DNA from: a virus
DNA length: 42,617 nucleotides
Strand: one strand, 5' to 3'
IMG/VR virus record: IMGVR_UViG_3300022851_000031
Location: 1-42,617 of that record
The position numbers and the translations under genes are program-made. The notes under the pieces are model-generated. The model was not told the DNA's origin, made no database searches, and saw nothing but the letters and a program-made list of their open reading frames with translations. This document shows, one piece after another, positions 5,442 through 41,813 of the stretch (positions are counted from its first letter, which is position 1; each line of letters starts with the position of its first letter).

Positions 5442-5936
5442 ATGACAACTGTAAACATTGTAAAATTAGGTAGTTCTCCAGTATCTGTAGTATTGGAAAA
5501 TTGAGGTACTGCGTTAGATGCACTCGTAGAAGGTGGGTTTAATGTAGATTCTATCACAGATGTAAAGAGAAATGGCTCTATTATATCTCTTGACACACAA
5601 GTAGATGATTGAGATATGTTATTAATTTCTACAGAAAAAATTAAGTGAGGTACGGAAGAAGTAAAAGAAAAAGATGTGTATTTTGCTTCTTTTGATCTGC
5701 AGGAAGCCAATAAAGAAATTAATGTAAATGATTGAAAGATAGCTTTTTCTGAAGGTTCTCTATTGCAAGACTTAGTTAAATGTGAATTACATAAAAAGAA
5801 TGTATCTATGAGTCGTTTTGCTTGAATTATAGATTCAGAATGAGAGAAAGTTAGTTTATGAGATGTCGCATTAAATTGAGAATCTTATAAGATATTTTAT
5901 AAAGGTATTAGTGAAAGAATAGAAGAAGATTACTAG
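5442..5936 (+). CDS. Ubiquitin-like protein with two beta-grasp-like parts and an internal Gly-Gly
   Basis: 164 residues. Residues 1-70 read as a ThiS/MoaD/ubiquitin-type beta-grasp domain: strands VNIVKL and VSVVLEN, a helix with TALDALVEGG, a VKRNGSIISLDTQV segment and the hallmark DDGDMLLIST leading to KIKGG (Gly69-Gly70). In related proteins the C-terminal GG is the residue activated by the E1. Residues ~78-157 form a second strand-rich part (NVNDGKIAFSEGSLLQDLV...NGESYKIFYKG), possibly another beta-grasp unit. The GG is internal, so a protease, plausibly the JAB encoded two genes on, would have to cut after Gly70 to expose it. A strong terminator overlaps the stop codon. Eight of 15 glycines are TGA. 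The beta-grasp assignment is by pattern; the context of E2, JAB and E1 genes makes it convincing. Confidence 0.72.
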
Positions 5937-5980: not shown

Positions 5981-7501
5981 ATGGCACATATTCACATATC
6001 CCCAAAATTCAAAGATACCTTATTATCTATAGAATGATTTATTAAAAATCATTTATGAATAGAAGATTTTGATAATGCTAGGAATGAAAGTTTAGCTGTT
6101 GCTATATCATGATTCATTATTAGAAACAATATTATTCTTTACACCAAAGATTGAAATAGAATACGTTGAAGTTTCTTATGAACTATAAGATGAATAGATA
6201 TAGATTATATATGGACAGATACAGAACTATATTTACGAGAACCATTATTACAAAAAATAAAAACTATATATGTACACGAAGACCCATTGTTTGATAAATG
6301 AGAGATATTGAAATTTAAGAGTGGAGAGGAAATATGTAGATTAATTGGGAATGTTGCTATTGATATGAGTAAATTTGCGTCTGAATATGTAGAATGTATA
6401 TGATATGAAGGTCAATATGCTGTAATGTTTAGCTGATGAAAGACGGTTTATGTTAAAAATATTGAATGAACTATTGTTTGAGTTCCACAATCATTATTGA
6501 CTGGGTCTGATGTAGTTAGTCTTGAAGAGGTTATAGATATGAAGATAAAGAATACCATTAGATTAAGGATAGAAGATAATAGAAAATACAAAGAAGAAGA
6601 AATCAATAATCTATATAGATTATCATTAAGAGAGTTTATGGAGAACGCTAAAAAATTATGAGATTTTTTGTCTGAAGATTTGGAGACAGAGGTAGATAAA
6701 CAATATGAGAATATCAGAAACCTATCAAGTATTTTAGAAAAACATAATTTAGTTGATAAAGTTATTTTCATACCTAACAAATCTATAACTATATATACAC
6801 GAAATATATATAGTGAATGAGATTCTAAATACCCATTATGAAGATATAAAATATATATTGATCTAATTAATTATTCCTTGAATATTAAGAATACTGTAGT
6901 TGATGTAGGTGGAGTATACCACCACCCTCATATAAATATTTCTTGAGATTGTTGTCTTTGAGAATACGCAACAATATTATCTAAGTTATATAAAGCACAA
7001 GACTATATAGCATATTGATATGCAATATTAGAATATTTACAAAGTTATTATGCAGATAGTGTCTACCAGAGTAGAGATTCTTTCGTGTCTAATCATAAAC
7101 CAAAATTAGATCAATCTATACAAGATGAGCTTAGTGCTAAAATAAAAGAAACAGAAATTATTGTTGATTGAGTTAGTATCGTTTGAATCGAATTAAATAA
7201 TCTTACCTATATAGAATTAGATATAGAAAAATTAAGAAACGAGTACCAATTACTTTGAAATTCTACCCCTGAAAGAGTAGCAAGAAGCGTACCATCAAAA
7301 AAAGCAGATGACTATATGTGGATTATGGGTAAAGTACAAGAAAGAGCAAAATGAAAATCAATATGGGATAAGTATATGATATATAATGATGTATTATATA
7401 AGCAGTATGTAGCTCCTAAAAACGATACAAACGCCATTACAGATAGTTTTATAAAAGCTATAGATCATAAAGTAACTGCACAGCAATTACTTACAGCATA
7501 A
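5981..7501 (+). CDS. E2-like ubiquitin-conjugating protein with N- and C-terminal extensions
   Basis: 506 residues, leader TTGCAAGTATG, TAA 7499-7501. The core signature is VYHHPHINISGDCCLGEY: His315-Pro-His317 followed by Cys324-Cys325. In eukaryotic E2s the HPN motif precedes the catalytic cysteine by the same spacing (HPN...G..ICL, His to Cys = 10 residues), so Cys325 aligns with the active site. Helices after it (ATILSKLYKAQDYIAYGYAIL...LQSYYADS) match the E2 C-terminal helices. The ~300 residues before it and ~150 after it are of unknown fold; a strand pair near 50-90 and a long helix at ~215-245 are visible. It resembles the E2-like B protein of PRTRC cassettes in context (next to Ubl, JAB and ThiF) but is about twice as long. 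Expected role: accept Ubl from the E1 and transfer it to a target. Confidence 0.7.
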
Positions 7502-8499: not shown

Positions 8500-9153
8500 A
8501 TGACACAAAGACACCGTAACCAGTTAGATATATACGACCCTGAAATAGATTGACAAAAGAGTGTACTGATAGTATGAGCTTGATGAATATGAAGCACGAC
8601 TACATATGCTTTAGCACAGATGGGTATAATAGATATAACAGTAATAGATTTTGATGAATTAGAGAATCATAATATAGCTACCCAATTCTATAGGGAAGAC
8701 CAGTTATGAAAATGAAAGTTGGAATCATTAAAAGAGAATGTTAAGCAATTTACTTGAGTTGAGATAAAAACTATAGAATGATTATTCAAAGCAGAGTATG
8801 TAGAGTGAATGGATATAGTGATAATGTGAGTAGATAATATGAAAACAAGAAAGGAGATAGCAGAAGCCTGTGAGAGTAGCAATGTATCTAGACTTATAGA
8901 TTGTCGCATGAAGGCAGAGTTCTTTGTCATATACAACTTTATACCACAGTACGAACTGGACTTATACTTACAAAAACGATACTCTGATGATGAAGCAGAT
9001 GAAGAAAAATGTACATTGAAGTGAGTAAGTTATAATTGTTTATGAATAGCTAGTATATTAGCAAGAATTGTTAAATGAATAATAAAGGAAGAAAAACATA
9101 TATTAGATAAGTTTGAGTTATGGGTAGATTTACATAATCTACAAATCACATAA
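8500..9153 (+). CDS. E1/ThiF-family adenylating enzyme
   Basis: 217 residues, ATG 8500 to TAA 9151-9153. It starts with RHRNQLDIYDPEIDGQKSV and the nucleotide-binding glycine-rich loop VLIVGAGGIGSTT (residues ~23-35), then VIDFDELENHNIATQFYRED, which contains the conserved Asp and the Asn/Arg-type contacts of ThiF/MoeB/E1 enzymes. MGVDNMKTRKEI and LIDCRMKAEFF are the usual central strands. Cys171 and Cys180 (EEKCTLKGVSYNC) are candidates for a thioester or crossover-loop cysteine; no CxxC zinc pairs are seen. It is the last gene of the module. Fourteen of 15 glycines are TGA, including four in the ATP loop, so the enzyme cannot be made under the standard code. Confidence 0.88.
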
Positions 9154-10199: not shown

Positions 10200-10778
10200 A
10201 TGTCGAATAAAAACTGTAACAACTGTTACAACTGTAACAACTGTAAAAACTGTCACAACTGTAAAAACTGTCACAACTGTAACAACTGTAACAACTGTAA
10301 AAACTGTCACAACTGTTACAACTGTTACAACTGTAACTACTGTTACAACAGTAACTGCTGTTACAACTGTTACAACTGTAACTACTGTTACAACTGTCAC
10401 TACTGTAAAAACCTAAGGATGACAGAGCTAAACTACTTTTGTTGGGCTGAAAATAGTGAGGTAGATTGATATCAACAACCGAAATACAGAGTATTCAATG
10501 TACAATTAACTGAGGAAGAATATCATAAGATACCTAAGTTATATCACAGACTAGAGTTTGATAGTGGAGAAGACCCTTCTACAAGATACCAAACAGCGTT
10601 CAAGAAGATGCGAGATTGATTGACGACATCACAAAAACAAGAATATCTAAACATCCCTCACTTCAATGCTGAATGATTTAAGTTTATCACTGGTATAGAT
10701 GTATCGAAGGAAGTAGAAGAATATACACTAGAAGAAGTATGTAAGATGTTATGAAAAGATATTAAGATTAAGAAGTAA
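10200..10778 (+). CDS. Cys-rich tripeptide-repeat protein with C-terminal domain
   Basis: 192 residues. Residues ~6-72 consist of about 22 Cys-x-x units, mostly NC preceded by N, K, H or Y (for example NCNNCYNCNNCKNC). The unit is broken once (YNSNCCYNC). Three-residue periodicity with Asn and Cys suggests a tight beta-helix or a metal-binding ladder. Residues ~73-192 are an ordinary domain: TELNYFCWAENSEVDGYQQP, then VFNVQLTEEEYHKIPKLYHR and FNAEGFKFITGID. The start is the ATG just before the repeats; parallel frames (VTTVTT) are open only because of the repeat and lack the second domain. TAA 10776-10778. I recall similar repeat proteins in phages but cannot name a function. Confidence 0.7.
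10212..10410 (+). repeat. 9-base tandem repeat AACTGTNAC
   Basis: About 22 tandem units of AACTGTAAC, AACTGTTAC, AACTGTCAC or AACTGTAAA. It codes for the Cys-x-x repeat above. The variation among units is mostly in one codon, so the array has been kept as protein code and is not a recent pure duplication. No spacers, so not CRISPR. Confidence 0.9.
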
Positions 10779-12245: not shown

Positions 12246-14729
12246 ATGAAAAATAGCAGAGATTTAGTAGAAATCTTTTTGAAAGATAATGATATTAATA
12301 TTAATATTAGTGAATATATAAATATTTTGAAATGATGTTGTGATGTGGATGTTAATATATCTATTTTTGATGCTATAATTGTTGATGCATATAATGGTTT
12401 CTCAGAAGATGTAAAAGATATATCAAACTATATACACGCTACTACAGGAGTCTTTTTGGGAAGACAAGAAAAAATAGTTCTTAAAAAATCTCTTGATTAT
12501 GGCTATAAAAATGATTTAGATGCCATTATAGATCCAAAAATAAAGAAGATAAATTTAAAACAATTGGTTATAGATCATAGAAAGGATAATTTCCAAAAAA
12601 TAGTTGATTGTAAAAATATATTCTTTGAAAACTTGCAGGATGCAATAAAAAATAACAATAAGAAAAGAGTTTCTGACTATATTAATTTCCTTTATTCTAA
12701 GGTTCTTAAATATGTTGAATATAAAAATAGAAGTATTTATGATATATTCCAAGATAATAAGGTTATTTTAGAAAAGAATAATTCATTAGAATTGTTGGGA
12801 AGGTTTGAGTCTATTTGTATAGGTTATAAAAAGAAACTTCCATATATGGAAGCCGTCAATTTGTTTAATAAGTTATATAATGATGAGATACTGAATGATT
12901 GAAACAGTTTAAGTGATGTTGTAATATTTAAGTTAGACCAGAAGTTATTCAATAAGTTTTGATCTAAGAGTGAATTTATTTCATATTGTTTTTGATTGTT
13001 TGGTAAAATTTATTCAGATCTTAATAACCATAGAAGTTTAGTGGTTAAGATAGACAATATTATAGATAATAACATAAATATAAAATGGGAATTATATTCT
13101 TATTTGACTATTTATGCAGAAAACTTTATTTCATATGGTGAAAAATGACAATATTATAAATCTGAGGAAATCTGTATTGATTATTTAGAACATAGATATT
13201 GATTATGAAATACAGCTGAAAATAAAAATAAGTTGAAAGGATATTTTGAATGAAATCTAAATATTTGAGAATTGAATAGTTTTTGCGGTTTGAGTTTACT
13301 AAAGGGTGAAATAGATTATTTTAAATATATGTATAATGGCTTTCAATTCGTTGATTGTATTATTCTAAAATCTGATAATTGTTTTGAAAATACTAAGGAA
13401 ATAGCTTTTATTGAAAATAAAAATGAACTTTTATTGATTTTTGTTAAACATCAAGTTGATGATAGAATGATCCCTTGTCCTGTATGTGCTTCTTTAAAGA
13501 TATCTGGTAATTCTTATACATCTATAGGTATAAAAAGTTGGGAATGTAAAAATAATTTATGTTCTGATCGTAGTAAGACTAATAGATGAAAACGTTATTC
13601 AGCTAGGAGTAATGATATGCAGATGTGAGCTGCTAGTAATTTAAGATCTAATATTATATCAAAAGATTTAATCTCTAAATGGAGAAGGGATATCGTTTCG
13701 GAATCATCATACAACTCTTTATATGAAATGCTTATAAGATATTATTCGTATGATTGATGAAATGTTTTGTTTTTAAATTTTGAGAAATCCAATGTTTGTT
13801 CAGATTTAAATATAAGTCGTAATATTATATTTGATAGTGTTTTTGGGGTATTGCCAATTGATGCTTACCAACCTAACTTATTTATAGATTTTATAGATGG
13901 AGCATTAGTAAATAAGTTTATTTATGATAATGAATGATCACAAAAATTAAAAACAATCAAAATAGATGATTTAAGTTCATTTAGAATAGAAAATTCAGAC
14001 TGTTTATCTTATTTAAAACAGTTGCCTAAGAGCTCAATTGATGGTATGGTCACCTCTCCTCCATATTATAATGCTAGAGAGTATTCTCAATGGAAGAATT
14101 TGTATAATTATTTAAATGATATGTATAAAATATGTAAATCTTCATTTGATGTAATGGTTGATGGAGGTGTGTTTTTTTATAATATTTGAGATATTTTTGA
14201 TAATCCAAATACATTTGTTAAGTCTAAAATGGGTGAAAAAAGAATTGCTCTGTGAGCTTATATGATCCTTGCTTTTAAAAAAGCAGGTTTTGAATTGTTG
14301 GATAATGTTATTTGGGATAAGTGAGAAACACAAAGTAATAGACATAAGAATGATGGAAATTTTACGCCATATTATCAAAAGCCAGCAAATTGTTATGAAC
14401 ATATGTTTATATTTAAAAAACCGTGAAAACTAAGATTGTCTATAACTCCAATGATAAAAAACAATATACAAAAATTTTGACCTGTGATTAAAATAAATAG
14501 TAAGTGAGAGAATTTATTTGGTCACACGGCTCCTTATCCTGTGGTTTTGCCCTCACTTTCTATTAAGACTTTTACTAAAAAAGGTGATATTGTTTTTGAT
14601 CCGTTTTTGTGAAGTTGAACTTCTGTTTATGTTGCTGTAAATAATGGTCGTAAGGGGTTATGAACAGAATTGGATAGCCTATATTTTGATTTGGCTGCTG
14701 AACATATTAAAAAAAATATTAAAAACTAA
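12246..14729 (+). CDS. Large DNA methyltransferase with N-terminal helical region and zinc motif
   Basis: 827 residues, ATG 12246 to TAA 14727-14729. The C-terminal ~230 residues are an amino-methyltransferase: catalytic TSPPYY (residues 603-608, N4-cytosine or N6-adenine type) followed by the SAM-binding DPFLGSGT at 785-792, the beta-class order. FFYNIGDIF and AAEHIKKN are further conserved parts. Residues ~411-436 hold a CPVC...C...C zinc-finger-like motif ending in SDRSKTNRGKRYS. The first ~400 residues are helical and not recognised; they may be the recognition part. It probably protects phage DNA from restriction or marks it. Glycines are TGA in about 23 of 49 cases and the gene is very T-rich, unlike its neighbours. 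Confidence 0.82.
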
Positions 14730-16322: not shown

Positions 16323-16772
16323 ATGTTAATATCAAAAGAAATTCAACGAGATATGTGACACAGAGTACCAAACCATAAAAGCAAGTGTAGAAATCTCCAT
16401 TGACATAGATACAAAGCAGAAATTATTATGAAATGAGATATTATAGAAGAAAAAGGTAAATCAGAAGAGTGAATGGTTATAGATTTTTCTGATATAAAAA
16501 ATATAGCTAATGGTTATGTAGATGAAAACCGAGACCATTGATATATGTATTATGTTTGAGATGCTATATGAGAATTAGCAGAAAATATGTGAATGAAAGC
16601 TATTGAGGTTTCTTTTATTCCCACAGCAGAGAATATAGCAAAACATCTGTTTGATATATTAAATCCTATGTTTGATGATGTATATAAATCTAATCTAAGG
16701 TTGCAAGGTATTAAATTACGAGAGACTCCGACAAGTTATGTTTTATATTCTCCTAACGATAATGTGAGATAA
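16323..16772 (+). CDS. queD: QueD, 6-carboxy-tetrahydropterin synthase
   Basis: 149 residues. The zinc and catalytic motifs of the PTPS/QueD family are visible: MGHRVPNHKSKCRNLHGH (zinc His, catalytic Cys before HGH), VIDFSDIK, PTAENIAKHLF and LRETPTSYVLY (Glu). It converts dihydroneopterin triphosphate, the FolE product, into 6-carboxytetrahydropterin. The FolE start lies 11 bases inside its end. Confidence 0.9.
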
Positions 16773-17325
16773 AAGCAAATTAGAGAATATATTTTCACAA
16801 TTTATGAAAGAATTGAATTTAGATTTAACTGATGCTTCATTAAAAGATACTCCAAAAAGAGTAGCTAAAATGTTTATTGATGAAACTTGTAATTGATTAT
16901 TTACTGAACCACCTAGAATAACAGTATTTCCAAATGACTGAAGTTATGACCAAATGGTGTTAGTTAGAGATATTCAAGTACAAAGTTTATGTGAACATCA
17001 TTTTCAACCTTTTATTTGAAAAGCATATATAGCATATATCCCAAAAGATAAGGTTGTATGATTATCTAAATTTGCAAGAGTAATCGATTATTTTGCTCGT
17101 AGACCACAAGTACAAGAAAGATTAACTATGCAGATACATAATTTCTTAGTAGATGTATTAGAGACTGAAGATGTAGCTGTTATTATTAAAGCAGAACATT
17201 TCTGTATGAAGCTGAGATGAGTAAAAGACCCTTGTAGTGATACAGTAACAAGTAATCTCTCTTGAGTTTTTAGAGATGATAGTAGTCAATCAAGACAAGA
17301 GTTTTTAGCTTTACTTAAAATATAA
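16762..17325 (+). CDS. folE: FolE, GTP cyclohydrolase I
   Basis: 187 residues, overlapping queD. The start at 16762 ([17 protein letters not shown]) gives the full N-terminal helix leading into [12 protein letters not shown]. Zinc ligands are conserved: CEHHFQPF, and [40 protein letters not shown] is the conserved active-site helix. It opens GTP to dihydroneopterin triphosphate and starts the 7-deazaguanine pathway. The stop overlaps the XapX gene as TAATG. Confidence 0.93.
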
Positions 17326-17483
17326 TGCAAACTTTATTGTCTTTAGTTGCTTGAACTGTTCTATGATTGATTTTTGCCTTATTAAAACTTCCATTACCAG
17401 CTCCTTGACATATAAATTGAGTGGTTTGAATATTATGAGTTTTTATTTGATATATGTTTATTAAAAAATGGCTGTGATATTAA
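17325..17483 (+). CDS. XapX-domain small membrane protein
   Basis: 52 residues: [40 protein letters not shown] and IGYMFIKKW. Two hydrophobic segments around a P-x-P-A-P turn match the XapX domain (DUF1427). All ten or so glycines here are TGA. It overlaps queE by 16 bases. The reason for a XapX protein inside a queuosine-type cluster is unclear; it may be a small permease or an accessory. Confidence 0.75.
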
Positions 17484-19207
17484 AAGCAAGTGATACAAAG
17501 TGAGGATATATCCCAACTGAAGAGGAGAAGAAAAATAAGATGTTTGTTCCTTGAAAATTTAAGTTAAGTTGAGATTGAGTTTTTCATACAATACAATGAG
17601 AATGAACTTTTATATGAAAGCCAACTACTTTTATTAGACTCAATAATTGCAATCTTGCTTGTAGTCGATGCTTTGTGGGAAGTACTCCCGTAATGTTATC
17701 AGATGGAGGTTGGAAAAACATTGAGGAACTCCAAATAGGAGATAAGGTTCTTTCTCATAAAGACCAAAAAATAACAGAGAGCTGAGTAGAAAAAGGTTTT
17801 GTTCGTAAAAGTAAAACAGTTACTATAGTGACTGAGAATGGCGACAAGATTGAATGTACTCCAGATCATATGTTCTATACTAACAGACGTACAGGTAAAA
17901 AGCGAACGCAGAGATGTATGGCTAAGGATTTAAAGGGAGAGCATATAAAATATTTCCATTGATATCATTCTAAAATTAAGTTGGATGAACAATTTGCTCG
18001 TGGTTATCTTAAATGAGCTTATGTATGAGATGGTAATATAAGTAATAGTCATTTGTATTTTCAAGTATGTGACTTAGAGTTTGCCGAAGCTATTCAGTAC
18101 TGTATCAATCTTTTATGAGGCAATGTAAGTATAACAGAGAGTAGTAGAAAAACTATTGTCGGAAAAACGATTTATAGAGTAACTACCTGAAAAAAATCAG
18201 TTATAAATCAAGTCTTAGAACCTATAGAGACAAGAGAAAGTGCTATAGGGTATATAGCTTGATTTTATGATGCGGAATGACATACGTGAAGAAATCAGAT
18301 ATCTTTTTCACAGAAAGACCAGAATATACTAAAAAGATTAAAATGAATGCTTTTTGAGTTTTGAATAGTTACAAGTGACATAAAACCAGTAACAAGAGCA
18401 TCAGAGTTTTATATAACAGGTAAGAATAATATTAACACTTTCTTTGATATTATACCTATACAAATTACTAGAAAAATACCTAAAGATAAAAGGAATGTAC
18501 TTAGTAATGTTTTAGTTACTGAGGTAATAGAAAATATTAAGGAGAAAGATGTCTATGATATCCAGACAACTACTTGAAATTTCTTTGCTAAGAACTACTT
18601 AGTAGAAAATTGCGATGCTTGGTACACACGAAAACAAGATGAAAAGGAATATTATGAAAGCGAAAATATAGATTGATTAGAATTATATACTCGTATAATA
18701 GAATCTCAAAGAGAAAAAGGACTCACTAATATCTGTAAAAGTCTAACCTTTACTTGATGAGAGCCATTACTCCAACAAAGAACTATATGACAATTTATAG
18801 AAGAATATTGAGATGAATTTACGAATATACAAATAGAAACAAATTGAACTATTCCTGTATTAGATAAAAGATTGAAATGATGTTATTATAATTGTAGTCC
18901 TAAAATACCTAGTTCTGATAATGAAACAAAGATAGCATTTAATCCTGTTGTTTTGAAACAATTAGTCGCAACAAATAAAGCTATATTTAAGTTTGTATTT
19001 TTAACAAAAGAAGATGTTGATTATGTATTAGAGACATATAAAGACATTATCCCATTGGATATGATTTGGTTTATGCCTGAATGAGTGACGAAAGAAGAGA
19101 ACACTAAAGTGTTTGAAAATACGATTGATTATATTCTATCTAAAGGAGTTAATGTAACGATTAGAGCTCAAAATATAATGTGGGATTGAGCTAAAAGAGG
19201 TGTTTAA
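17468..19207 (+). CDS. queE: QueE, 7-carboxy-7-deazaguanine synthase, interrupted by an intein
   Basis: 579 residues including a 314-residue intein. N-extein: FHTIQGEGTFIGKPTTFIRL and the radical-SAM cysteines NNCNLACSR. The intein begins at the third cluster cysteine position and after splicing the motif becomes CNLACSRCDAWYT (CxxxCxxC). C-extein: TGGEPLLQ (SAM binding) and ETNGT. QueE makes 7-carboxy-7-deazaguanine (CDG) from the QueD product. Without splicing the iron-sulphur cluster cannot form, so the intein gates activity. Glycine codons: 16 of 20 are TGA in the exteins but only 12 of 26 in the intein, suggesting later arrival. Confidence 0.92.
17669..18610 (+). mobile_element. Intein with LAGLIDADG homing endonuclease in QueE
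   Basis: Starts with Cys (CFVGSTPVMLSDG, block A) and ends NFFAKNYLVEN, followed by extein Cys (blocks F/G with the terminal Asn). Block B-like TVTIVTENGDKIECTPDHMF. The two LAGLIDADG helices are ARGYLKGAYVGDG and AIGYIAGFYDAEG. Splicing would follow the class 1 path with Cys1, terminal Asn and Cys+1; the penultimate residue is Glu, not the usual His. Confidence 0.9.
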
Positions 19208-19227
19208 TTTTATAATCTATTTATAAT

Positions 19228-19290
19228 ATGCATATATTACATAAAAAACAAAAACTCTGATCTCGCTTATCTTATTTATCTAAAATATAA
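19228..19290 (+). CDS. Possible leader peptide coupled to the phosphoribosyltransferase gene
   Basis: 20 codons (MHILHKKQKLGSRLSYLSKI) ending as TAATG with the next start. It could couple translation; length makes it uncertain. Confidence 0.25.
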
Positions 19291-19721
19291 TGAAAAAATT
19301 ATTTGTATCAGCTAAAGAACTGAAATATTTATGTAAAGAATTTTGTGAAAAAGTAAAAAAGATGTGAAAAGAATATAAAACTCTTATACTTATAACTAAA
19401 TGAGCATTAATCCCTTGATATTATATTGCTGATATGCTTTGAATAAAAGATATTAGAACTATATGTGTAAATAGTTATATAGGGAAAAATCAAAGCTCAT
19501 TACAAATACATTATATGCCTGATATAGATACAGACAATATTCTTGTTTTTGATGAATTGACTGATACTTGAGAGACTTTATCTTGGGTAAAAAGTAAAAT
19601 GCCTATTGATAGAGAAATAGATTATTGAATATTATTTAAGTTTAAGCAATCATCATTTACTCCTGATATATATTGTAGAGAGAAATGAGATGAATGGATA
19701 GACTTCTATTATGAGAATTAA
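19290..19721 (+). CDS. Phosphoribosyltransferase (PRT) in the 7-deazaguanine cluster
   Basis: 143 residues. The PRPP loop ILVFDELTDTGETLSW (VFDELTDTGET-type, residues ~90-105) is the type I PRT signature. ILITKGALIPGYYIADMLGI is the conserved early strand-helix. The closest general family is xanthine-guanine PRT (Gpt-like). In this cluster it could act on guanine or a 7-deazaguanine base (preQ0), making a nucleotide; that substrate is inference. It is the one gene of the block that is not part of the usual FolE-QueD-QueE-QueC set. Confidence 0.75.
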
Positions 19722-19767
19722 GTCGATATAGTGACTATAAACCTACTTTTATATTTTATACATTATT

Positions 19768-20478
19768 ATGAAAAGCGTAATCGTATTATCTTGATGAATG
19801 GATAGCACAACATTGCTATACAAACTGAAAGCCGAATGAAAAGAAGTTTTTGCTGTATCTTTTGATTACTGACAAAAACACAAAAAAGAATTGTCGTATG
19901 CAGCTAAATCTTGTGAGAAATTATGAGTACCTCATAGGATTGTAGACCTTACAAGCATAACCGAACTTATATCAAACTCAGCATTGACGAGTGATATAGC
20001 TATGCCTGAATGACATTATGCTGACGACAATATGAAGAAGACTGTTGTTCCTAATCGTAATATGATTATGGCGAGTATAGCTATCTGATATGCTGTTAAT
20101 ATTTGAGCTGAAGAAGTAGCTTTATGAGTACACGATTGAGATCATGATGTATATCCTGATTGTAGACCAGTATTTATAGAAGCATTAAATAGAATAGCTT
20201 GATTAGCTAATTATGAAAAAGTAGCTATTTATGCTCCATTCTTATGAGGAGATAAGAATACTATCTTAAAAGAATGAATAGAGCTATGAGTAGATTACGC
20301 ATTAACTTGGACAGATTACGATTGAGGAGAAGTACCTAATTATAAAACAGGTAGTTCTGTAGAAAGAAATCTAGCGTTTATAGGACAATGAGTTAAAGAC
20401 CCATTGTATTCAGATGAATTATGGGAAGAAGCAAAAGGATATGCTTTATCACAAGAAAATGTTTACAAAAATAAATAA
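19768..20478 (+). CDS. queC: QueC, 7-cyano-7-deazaguanine synthase, zinc cysteines missing
   Basis: 236 residues. PP-loop ATPase motif VIVLSGGMDSTTLLYKL (residues 4-20, both motif glycines TGA), FDYGQKHKKELS, VVPNRNMIMASIA and ALGVHDGDHDVYPDCRPVF. QueC converts CDG to preQ0. In typical QueC the C-terminal part carries four zinc cysteines around CxxGxxxHCGxCGTCVER; here the corresponding stretch is TDYDGGEVPNYKTGSSVER with no cysteine. The fold without zinc may be stabilised differently, or the enzyme has drifted. The stop overlaps the next possible start as TAATG. Confidence 0.9.
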
Positions 20479-20555
20479 TGAAATTATATTTGGCTTGAGA
20501 AAAAAGAAGTAATTTATGATTTAATAAAGCAAATATGAAATTATACTTAGCTTGA
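20478..20555 (+). repeat. Duplicated gene start ahead of the DpdA-like gene
   Basis: ATGAAATTATATTTGGCTTGA at 20478 and ATGAAATTATACTTAGCTTGA at 20535 both code MKLYLAG, in the same frame 57 bases apart. The region between is EKRSNLGFNKAN. This looks like a local duplication of the start region and makes two alternative starts. Confidence 0.75.
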
Positions 20556-21329
20556 TATAGTACAGGAAAGAAGGCATATCCACTATTACCTAGTGCTACA
20601 TTAGCTCAATGTAATTTTCTTGAAACCTATCTTGCCGTTAAAAATAAATGATTAGCTCACGACTATAAGTTATTCAATAAAAAGTTCTTTCTTGATAGTT
20701 GAGCTTTCTCTGCGGCGACGCAATGAACCTCTATCTCTATAGATGATTACGAGAAATTCATTAAAGAGAATAAGCAATATCTTGAGTTATATGCAAATCT
20801 TGATGTTATCTGAGATTGAGACTCTACATTAAAGAACCAAGAAGAGTTAGAAAGAAGAGGATTATCTCCCTTACCTACTTACCATTTATGAAGTGATAAA
20901 AAATTCTTTGAGCATTATGTTCATAATTATGATTATATAGGGTTATGATGAATGGTTCCTTATGCAAACAAACCAAAGAAAATTAAACAATTCTTGGATT
21001 ATTGTTTTTGGTATATTAATAAACATAACTTAAAAACTAAATGCCATTGACGAGGAATGACAAATCCAAAGCTAATGGCTAAATATCCATTCTATTCTAT
21101 AGATAGCACTTGATGGTTAGCTTGATGAAAGTTTAATAGATTATATAGATTCCAATCTCCATATTTAACTGGATATTGAGCCAAAGAATATAGGGATAAA
21201 TATGGGATTGATTTTTGAGTTAAACACTACTCAGAGAAGAATAACTCTAATATTATAGAGCTGTATAAGTATATGACATACCTTAGCGCATTACATAAAG
21301 CAAAGAAGATGGATTATTTTAATCATTAA
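20535..21329 (+). CDS. dpdA: DpdA-like DNA guanine transglycosylase
   Basis: 264 residues from ATG 20535; ATG 20478 (coupled to the queC stop) would add 19. TGT-related motifs: MKLYLAGYSTG, FLDSGAFSA (Asp), YANLDVIGDG, GLSPLPTYHLGS, YIGLGGMV, KCHGRGMT and SIDSTGW (second active-site Asp). This is the small phage TGT-like family (DpdA) that exchanges guanine in DNA for preQ0 or a derivative. C-terminal VKHYSEKNNSNIIELYKYM completes the barrel. With FolE, QueD, QueE and QueC beside it this indicates 7-deazaguanine in the phage DNA. TAA 21327-21329. Confidence 0.82.
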
Positions 21330-39632: not shown

Positions 39633-41813
39633 ATGATTATAAGATATTTATGACAAGAACCGTCTAATATCAAAAACTCTGTAAATAAGACTATAGAGTT
39701 ATTTACTTGATCTACTGTAGATTTGTTAGATAGTACAGGAGAGAGATTGGTTACCGCTTATCCTAATTTGTATGAGGAGCTTAATCAGGTATGATTATAT
39801 ATTTGTAGTAACCCACAAACAAAGAATCTAATCTCTTTTAGTTATTCTGTAGAACAAGTATTGTCGCTATCTCGTAGATATGTAGAAGGTACTGCTATAT
39901 TAGATTGAGTTTCTGTTATTGTAAAAGCTGTAATAAATATAGATAACGGTACTGTTATAGATAATTTAGAAGCAGTATCGTTGTATGGTAGAGAAAGTGT
40001 ATTAGAACATTCTAGTTGAATAGAAGCAACTATCCAAAGTGGTAGCCTTGTTGGTTGAGATCTAGAGGTAGTTATATGTGCTGATTTCCAACCACCTGCA
40101 ATAGCAGCACAGACACTTACATTCTTTTGACCTAGTGCAGTAAACAAAGACGCTAACGGAGTATATACTTTATCCTTTAGTAACGCTTGACCTGATACAT
40201 CTACAGATACAGTGATAACATTACCATTGCCTGCTTGAGTAGATTATGTAAGCGATAATTGAGGTTGAGTAGAAAATGCTTGAGTTGTTACTTGGGATTT
40301 ATGAGATTATAATGCAGGACAAGATATAACAATATCTTTGACTCTCAATTTCACAACAGCTTGAAGTAAATCATTACAAGCTACATTGACTGATAGTTTA
40401 ATCGCAAGTAACGATATAGTAAGAACAATAAATACCAATGTATTGTTTGCCGATTTAGAATTAGGTATATCTTGAAGCACTACTCCTGAATATAGTGATA
40501 GTTTTTCACAAACAGTATTAGTCACAAATAACTGACCTACACTCGCAAACGGTACAGAAGTTACTATAGTATTACCTATATGAATTGATTGGGTTAGTGG
40601 TAGTGGTTGGAGTTATAACGCTTGAACAAGGACAGCGACTAAAACTATATGAACTCTAACAAATGGTTGAACAGATAGTAGTACAATAAATCTTATATGA
40701 GCAGATATATGAACATTTCAAATAGAATGAGAAGTTACTGCAACAACACCTGAATGAAATCCATTAGATAATACAGTAGATAGAAATATAACGGTAGAAA
40801 ACAAAAATATTGATAGCAGCTTAACTGGGTGGGTCGACGAGAATGATATACTTACTCAGTTTGCTGTAAACTTCAATACCCAGTTACCGTTTCCAAATCC
40901 GACATATTACACTTCTTGAGATTATAAAGTTTCTATAGAATTCCCATTATGAACACAATATTCTGATCTAATACAAAACAACGAGGTTGAGTATCCGTTA
41001 TGAGATATAGATAACGAAGTCCGAAACGCTTGAACAAGTACGGCAACTTGGGATATGACGCCAAAATCTGCAAGTCTTTGGCTTGGTAGTCCTTATCTTA
41101 ATTGACCATTAAATTATTATGCTTGAGATGTTATATTTACTTTATTAGTAAATATCCCTTTCAATGATATTAACTTAGTTAATAATGTATCTATTACTAA
41201 TATACCAGCAACTGGTTCTCTAAATACAACAGTAATAACTGACGATACATATGACTTATCTACTATAATAGATACTAATTTATGAGGTACTTTAGTATAT
41301 ACTTTAGATTGAACAAACACCATAGCTTGAGTAAGTATAGTATGAGATATATTGACTGTTACTGCTTGAGATAAGACAGGATTATTGGCTATAAATGTAA
41401 GTAACTGAGTGGATAGTGTAGTAGTTAATCAGACAGATATAACTAATCTTTATGAAATTCGTATGGATATTTTAAATCCCACAAGTGTTACTAATATAAG
41501 TAATGTGTCTATTGTTTTGAATAACCAAAGCGAGTCACCTAATCTAACACTAAACTATGCTTCTTTATGATGAACTTTATATAGAGTTGGTTATATAAAT
41601 ACAGCAAATGAGTATTGACCTTGAGTTATAGCTTGACCTAACGGGTTAACTTGAACTCTAATAACAGACCAATGAAATACCACTTTTCAATTATCTTGAA
41701 GTCCATCAGAAAATTCTGGAGTAATAAGTATGAATGTTATATATGGAACATTAGGTGAACCATCAGGTGAACCATCAGGTGAACCATCAGGTGAACCATC
41801 AGGTGAACCATAA
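39633..41813 (+). CDS. DUF11-like repeat adhesin / receptor-binding tail protein
   Basis: 726 residues. The N-terminal ~150 residues are a beta domain. From ~175 there are DUF11-like (prealbumin-like) Ig repeats: LSFSNAGPDTSTDTVITLPL, PAGVDYVSDN, VVTWDLGDYNAGQDITIS, repeated twice more with the same LP-GVDWVSG pattern. The end is (SGEP)n, coded by 12-base repeats, before TAA 41811-41813. DUF11 repeats are usual in surface adhesins of bacteria, so the phage may have taken one as a host-binding fibre. Confidence 0.7.
41754..41810 (+). repeat. 12-base tandem repeat GGTGAACCATCA (4.75 units)
   Basis: Near-identical units code (GEPS)4GEP at the C-terminus of the adhesin. Exact identity implies recent slippage expansion. 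The 12-base unit keeps the frame. Confidence 0.9.

Follow-up and report, generated by a model that had tools for sequence, protein, structure and literature searches.

A probable E2-type conjugating enzyme in a ubiquitin-like protein cassette of a phage that appears to read TGA as glycine

For phages, the one source that we consulted on this mentions only a ubiquitin-like protein (Ubl) gene together with a JAB gene in tail clusters, and the TAPI/TAPK tail genes of lambdoid phages are such a pair of Ubl and JAB peptidase (Iyer 2006). Complete cassettes of Ubl, E1, E2 and protease are already known from bacteria, where they form operons, and several of these have an antiviral role. In CBASS, a Cys-based E2 acts together with an E1 of ThiF type and with a JAB protease, and the C-terminus of the modifier is Gly or Ala (PMC10097602). 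In the Bil system (BilA-BilB-BilC-BilD), BilC trims BilA, a protein with two Ubl domains, and BilB carries a CEHH arrangement in which Cys138 is followed by Glu at +6, His at +8 and His at +13 (His151) (PMC11354881). In addition, the operons in row 6d of an earlier survey bring together genes for a Ub-like protein, JAB, E1 and E2, and their E2s have no His before the Cys and an invariant His after it (Iyer 2006). Meanwhile, HPH replaces HPN in the E2s of the UBE2W family, and one of these, UbcA1, has H83-P-H85...C93 (PMC4630614).

Here, we analysed the whole of an IMG/VR record of 42,617 bases (the window), in which the genes have open frames only if TGA codes for an amino acid. We found that the ORF at 5981-7501 (+ strand), whose sequence contains HPHINISGDCCLG, encodes an E2-like protein of 506 aa, named P0001; its frame is open across the 506 codons only with TGA as an amino acid (23 in-frame TGA). 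The gene is the second of a four-gene cassette in the order Ubl, E2, JAMM protease and ThiF-type E1, all on the + strand. We propose that P0001 is very probably an E2-type conjugating enzyme of a phage cassette for Ubl conjugation and deconjugation, no activity having been measured. As read from the sequence, its layout is that of a classical HPx...C E2, and both its activity and its acceptance of a thioester from E1 are inferred.

In the alignment columns of the four cassette proteins that are TGA-encoded in the window, homologues had Gly in 18-58% of cells, compared with 3-7% elsewhere, and this enrichment supports the reading of TGA as Gly in the window genes. The glycines of the GxGGxG motif in the window E1 are themselves TGA-encoded. 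A reading as Trp was rejected because homologues had Trp in only 0-2% of these cells. In addition, no tRNA gene was found in the whole window by ARAGORN. Thus, such a phage would depend on a host glycine tRNA that reads TGA.

Of the systems that come close, one is the eukaryotic UBE2W family. P0001 is like UbcA1 (PDB 3we5) in having HPH in place of HPN and 10 residues from His to Cys (PMC4630614), and UbcA1 is the best-scoring E2 fold for the model of the P0001 core (TM 0.46/0.50). However, UbcA1 is a stand-alone UBC domain, whereas P0001 has about 230 extra residues at the N-terminal side and 120 at the C-terminal side, and their sequences are hardly alike (19% identity in the Foldseek alignment). 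Furthermore, P0001, unlike UbcA1, is encoded in a phage alongside genes for a dedicated Ubl, an E1 and a JAMM protease.

Among the bacterial systems, the CBASS Cap2 and the PADLOC E1-E2 and E2 families are matched by relatives of P0001 at E 1e-3 to 1e-4. For instance, the E2 of L099, a close relative of the window, matches the PADLOC E1-E2 family PDLC00833 (E 1.4e-4) and the E2 family PDLC00872 (E 0.002), and in a PADLOC scan of 18 cores only E2 or E1-E2 families were matched (5/5). A Gly or Ala at the C-terminus of the modifier is also common to CBASS and the phage Ubls. However, Cap2 is a fused E2-E1, whereas the phage E2 (5981-7501) and E1 (8500-9153) are separate genes, and the phage modifier is a dedicated Ubl rather than a CD-NTase. 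No CD-NTase was recognised among the cassette and neighbouring genes tested.

The Bil system has the same components (Ubl, E2, JAB and E1), and the window Ubl may have two domains like BilA. However, the His pair of P0001 stands before Cys325 with no His in residues 326-370, whereas the His residues of BilB follow the Cys, and BilD is a large two-domain E1 with a Cys domain, whereas the window E1 (P0004) is a ThiF-type protein of 217 aa. Membership in BilB was rejected because P0001 has no His at +8 or +13 of Cys325. PRTRC-B was rejected too, since in P0001 HPH precedes Cys325 and residues 326-370 contain no His. We take the PRTRC operons to be those of row 6d. There was no match to the NCBIfam PRTRC-B and PRTRC-C models, and PRTRC_A reached only E 0.12 with the JAMM protein (P0003). 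The earlier note on this DNA had measured the protein against PRTRC B-type proteins, and this was the wrong yardstick: in PRTRC-type E2s the His follows the Cys, and in P0001 it precedes it. For the same reason, P0001 is not filed under PRTRC or BilB.

The lambdoid TAPI/TAPK genes have no E1 or E2 and lie in a tail cluster, whereas the phage cassette lies in a replication cluster. A likeness over the whole cassette was found in annotated phages reached through the E1, which were crAss-like Steigviridae (cr85_1, cr128_1, crAss001 and others) and Flavobacterium phage FpV4. In these phages, the ThiF gene is preceded by a 'metalloprotease' or hypothetical JAB gene, the JAB gene is preceded by a hypothetical protein with Y-[ML]-H-S-H...C-[LIT]-G, and a Ubl-like protein precedes the E2-like gene in nearly all of them. 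The Ubl-E2-JAB-E1 order and the strand are shared by the window, crAss001 and FpV4, and the Y-[ML]-H-S-H...C-L-G core aligns with the core of P0001. However, the crAss-type E2s have HSH rather than HPH and a longer, variable loop between His and Cys (mostly 11-16 residues between), and their phages use the standard genetic code, whereas the window phage has TGA as the putative Gly codon. In the records read, their cassette is annotated merely as a metalloprotease domain and ThiF. The cassette of the window is best called a phage variant of the prokaryotic Ubl-E1-E2-JAB systems, of the same kind as that of the crAss-like phages.

In a profile-profile comparison, the P0001 group and the crAss-type E2s aligned over the whole core, motif on motif (P 1.3e-6, probability 81-90%). 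However, hhalign was positive only when five members of P0001's own group were included, and P0001 as a single sequence gave no match to the crAss E2 alignment. The IMG/VR scans yielded 80 loci by crAss E2 and 62 by E1, the latter including L099, which has all four genes. Further loci came from the HPH pattern, from the E2-core alignment, and then from an E1 query taken from large-phage contigs (24 loci). The cassette order was conserved on one strand in most of about 150 IMG/VR loci. Duplicates and truncated loci are among these, and the window's own proteins were part of the profiles for Ubl, JAB and E1 used in the survey. Related cassettes are present in well over a hundred phage contigs and were missed by the family databases searched. 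In the cassette members scanned, no Pfam model matched the E2s. Moreover, a scan of GTDB genomes with the E2 core gave no bacterial relative (9 pattern matches, none confirmed). We did not find these cassettes described for crAss-like or code-25 phages in the open-access literature. The novelty of the phage cassette is provisional, because the coverage was limited to open-access papers.

Two side observations concern these loci. Large phages have HPH-type E2s with long C-terminal CxxC arrays (for example, L164:5572-6870, L166-L171, L173 and others), which by eye look zinc-finger or RING-like and suggest E2-E3-like fusions; the E2s of L164 and L167 had no Pfam match at E 0.001. In addition, the JAB or E1 is split into two matches in L025, L044, L052, L063, L064, L071, L073, L105, L122, L139 and L158, with gaps of roughly 0.3-1.2 kb that are possibly introns, inteins or homing endonuclease insertions.

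The surroundings of the cassette may hint at what it modifies. By PHROGs, the genes upstream in the window encode a primosomal-type protein, a RusA-like resolvase, an SSB-like protein and an exonuclease-family protein, and in the crAss-like phages and FpV4 the cassette is surrounded by primase, uracil-DNA glycosylase, resolvase and exonuclease. Because the cassette sits among replication and recombination genes, a first guess, tentative and resting on position only, is that its targets belong to the machinery with which the phage replicates, or are host factors that act on this machinery. Neither an E3 nor a target of the cassette could be identified. It is also conceivable, but unlikely, that the cassette is aimed at the host, either by tagging or blocking a defence factor or through a JAMM protein that strips CBASS-, Bil- or Bub-type Ubl modifications. 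The arms race with the host makes this plausible, and relatives do match E2 and JAB models of defence systems. However, the position among replication and recombination genes recurs in unrelated phages, and the cassette includes a Ubl gene, for which a simple antagonist would have no use. This alternative concerns the target, and it is compatible with P0001 as an E2.

Of the partners of P0001, the Ubl gene (5442-5936, + strand) encodes 164 aa from the Met at 5442, and its ORF extends to 5385. Residues 1-70 have the look of a ThiS/SAMP2-type beta-grasp and end in KIKGG (about 5637-5651), followed by T and then by a second segment of similar pattern; that this second segment is a beta-grasp was judged by eye. 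Against the PDB, the 70-aa segment gave weak best matches to SAMP2 (5lda_B, E 0.12) and PF1061 (0.18). Against Pfam, the aligned relatives matched ThiS (best 1.6e-4), TGS, Ub-Mut7C and SAMP2. The window and L099 Ubls are 39% identical (E 2e-30). The motif K-[IV]-x-[GS]-[GA] stands at the end of the phage Ubls or within them, and because several extend past it, trimming by the JAMM protein is plausible.

The JAB/JAMM metalloprotease-like protein P0003 (7532-8479, + strand, 315 aa) has a complete JAMM signature, namely E40 and H101-S-H103-x7-S111-x2-D114, which is conserved in alignment A4. The A4 profile matched CSN5 best in the PDB (0.0063), followed by archaeal JAMM1 (0.06); the JAMM1 and SAMP2 matches stem from one entry, 5lda. 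P0003 and the L099 JAB share 36% identity (E 5e-57). The E1/ThiF-like activating enzyme P0004 (8500-9153, + strand, 217 aa) matches Pfam ThiF at E 2.3e-24 and is 51% identical to the L099 E1. It has GxGGxG at 26-31, D50/D52, K73, D112-N113 and a conserved Cys171, and Cys171 and the adenylation residues are invariant or nearly so in alignments A6 and A11.

These partners could also be read as a sulfur-carrier system, in which a ThiS/MoaD-like protein is activated by the ThiF-like E1 to a thiocarboxylate and sulfur passes to a nucleotide, tRNA or cofactor, with P0001 as a scaffold or as a sulfur acceptor via Cys325. The likeness of the Ubl to ThiS and SAMP2, the short ThiF-type E1 and the presence of other nucleotide-modification genes in the window (QueD, FolE, QueE and QueC) would fit it. 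However, we recognised neither a rhodanese nor a cysteine synthase among the cassette genes, and an E2-like protein with an invariant HP...C lies between the Ubl and JAMM genes. Moreover, JAB and E1 neighbourhoods outside the metabolic types have no links to metabolic enzymes (Iyer 2006). We therefore consider a sulfur-carrier role improbable.

One line of evidence for an E2 is the active site. The motif H315-P-H317-INISGDC-C325-L-G327 lies at 6923-6961 (+ strand), with the codons of His315 at 6923, His317 at 6929, Cys324 at 6950 and Cys325 at 6953. It is HPH, the signature of the UBE2W family, and not HPN, and its spacing matches that of UbcA1. The earlier note had placed the His-Pro-His and Cys325 at the spacing of eukaryotic E2s, with a second Cys adjacent. 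Our recount in the ORF agreed (10 residues from His315 to Cys325, and 8 from His317), and Cys324 is present in the 506-aa translation, whose cysteines are 119, 139, 324 and 325. In the core alignment of 18 members (A13), H315, P316, H317, C325 and G327 are invariant (18/18), whereas position 324 is C, L, I or P. Cys324 was rejected as the catalytic residue because it varies among relatives.

It should be noted that members of the 18-member alignment were picked partly via the HPH motif. Thus, the count from the 24 loci fetched by E1 sequence alone is the important one. An E2-core protein was found upstream of the E1 in all 24, and all 24 retained His-Pro, the Cys and Cys-x-Gly; HPH...C.G was kept in 22 of them, and the remaining two had HP[YF]...C.G. 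Some of these loci are near-duplicates, and most also served in the profile. Among the crAss-type E2s, all 125 have the second His and the Cys (125/125). However, some of the conservation counts are partly circular. It was an E2 pattern that retrieved loci L015-L094, and the survey profiles for Ubl, JAB and E1 contained window proteins. The conservation of ES..G.PY in the crAss group, too, partly reflects selection by the search pattern.

The second line of evidence is the predicted fold. The UBC-like core comprises residues 232-385 (6674-7135, + strand), and its AF2 model from the 18 sequences has pLDDT 83.3 and pTM 0.79. The elements, which include a four-stranded meander and an active-site loop, follow the order alpha-b-b-b-b-[active site]-alpha-alpha-alpha, as in UBC domains. 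In a Foldseek search of the PDB with this model, the best TM-scores belonged to E2-type folds, UbcA1 being followed by UbcH7 (0.43) and Cap2 (0.43), and RWD domains were among the structural neighbours. However, no E-value was significant (best E2 0.91), and several unrelated folds outranked the E2s by E-value, but with TM of about 0.2. In a viral structure library, an entry named as an E2, from Bodo saltans virus, came fourth (probability 0.60), whilst probability 1.00 was reached by two proteins without a name. The full-length AF2 model, from five sequences, was poor (pLDDT 44.5), and its Foldseek list was noise. Because the fold comparison stays below significance, membership of P0001 in the UBC superfamily, which rests on a model, is likely but not proven. 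According to the earlier note, the E2 reading would fail if Cys325 varied in close homologues or was predicted to be buried in a non-UBC fold. It withstood both, with Cys325 invariant in the alignable relatives and, for the fold, with a model in UBC order but no significant Foldseek E-value.

Sequence searches gave a similar picture. P0001 alone had no match naming an E2 in Pfam, NCBIfam, PHROGs, PADLOC, the PDB or annotated phages. The profile of four E2 cores (A8) matched 46 PDB sequences at E<=10, 44 of them eukaryotic E2s aligned on the motif, and the top match was UBE2W (2mt6), with a best E of only 0.33. A sequence relationship specifically to the UBE2W family, which is also marked by N-terminal alpha-amino specificity, has no more than this weak match behind it. 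The deeper A13 profile found no E2 in the PDB below E 1, only three irrelevant weak matches. P0001 and the L099 E2 are 36% identical over residues 154-372 (224 aa, E 1e-35). The long N-terminal extension of unknown fold reported earlier is present, with about 230 residues before the core; it is partly shared with L099, and long N- and C-terminal extensions are common among these phage E2s.

Another possibility is that P0001 has the E2 fold but no activity and serves as an adaptor, as RWD/UEV proteins do, and the RWD domains among its structural neighbours would agree with this. However, RWD/UEV proteins lack the Cys, and among the phage proteins even highly divergent relatives retain the Cys and the His-Pro, which leaves this possibility with very little weight. 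A chance match of the motif in an unrelated phage protein, for which only the lack of a direct database match to P0001 speaks, can practically be dismissed, because motif conservation, fold prediction and cassette context agree and the relatives retrieved independently of the motif contradict it.

With P0001 as an E2, the cassette might work as follows. The JAMM protease would trim the Ubl precursor after KIKGG and expose the glycine carboxylate. Next, the ThiF-type E1 would adenylate the Ubl with ATP and form a thioester on Cys171, as inferred from its conserved residues. The Ubl would then be handed to Cys325 of P0001, where His317 may stand in for the Asn of HPN as the oxyanion stabiliser, as proposed for UBE2W, and His315-Pro may shape the loop. 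Finally, the Ubl would be put on an amino group of the target, from which the JAMM protease could remove it. Of this mechanism, the gene order and the conserved catalytic residues are observed directly, together with a UBC-like core that is predicted, and nothing else.

In the present loci, the full set recurs in phage replication regions, including those of the cultured crAss001 and FpV4, whose E2 and Ubl are recorded as hypothetical proteins. Because these cultured phages carry the cassette, what a phage tags, and why, can be tested in laboratory phage-host pairs. In addition, the HPH...C layout common to P0001 and UBE2W is informative for E2 evolution. Somewhat more speculatively than for the targets, several unrelated tailed-phage lineages (crAss-like phages, Flavobacterium phages, the TGA=Gly phages, and large phages with CxxC-array E2s resembling E2-E3 fusions) might share an old system for Ubl conjugation. 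It would have the classical HPx...C layout, would be tied to genome replication, and could be related to the stock that gave rise to eukaryotic-type E2s.

Elsewhere in the window, a 7-deazaguanine set (PTPS/QueD, GTP cyclohydrolase I, QueE and QueC) lies at 16323-21329, which suggests modified phage DNA. A possible DpdA/TGT-like gene at 20478 had no Pfam match, and the QueE-like radical SAM gene (17468-19207) is split by an intein with Hint and LAGLIDADG domains. A short tandem repeat of AACTGT-like units at 10200-10420 encodes, in frame, a segment largely of Cys and Asn. The ORF at 12246-14729 (827 aa) ends in an N6/N4 DNA methylase domain (E 1.5e-29), which is preceded by a long unassigned part. 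Finally, the late region encodes, at 39633-41813, a protein of 726 aa that contains DUF11 repeats (E 1.8e-16), ends in a GEPSGEPSGEP tail and is probably a virion surface protein.
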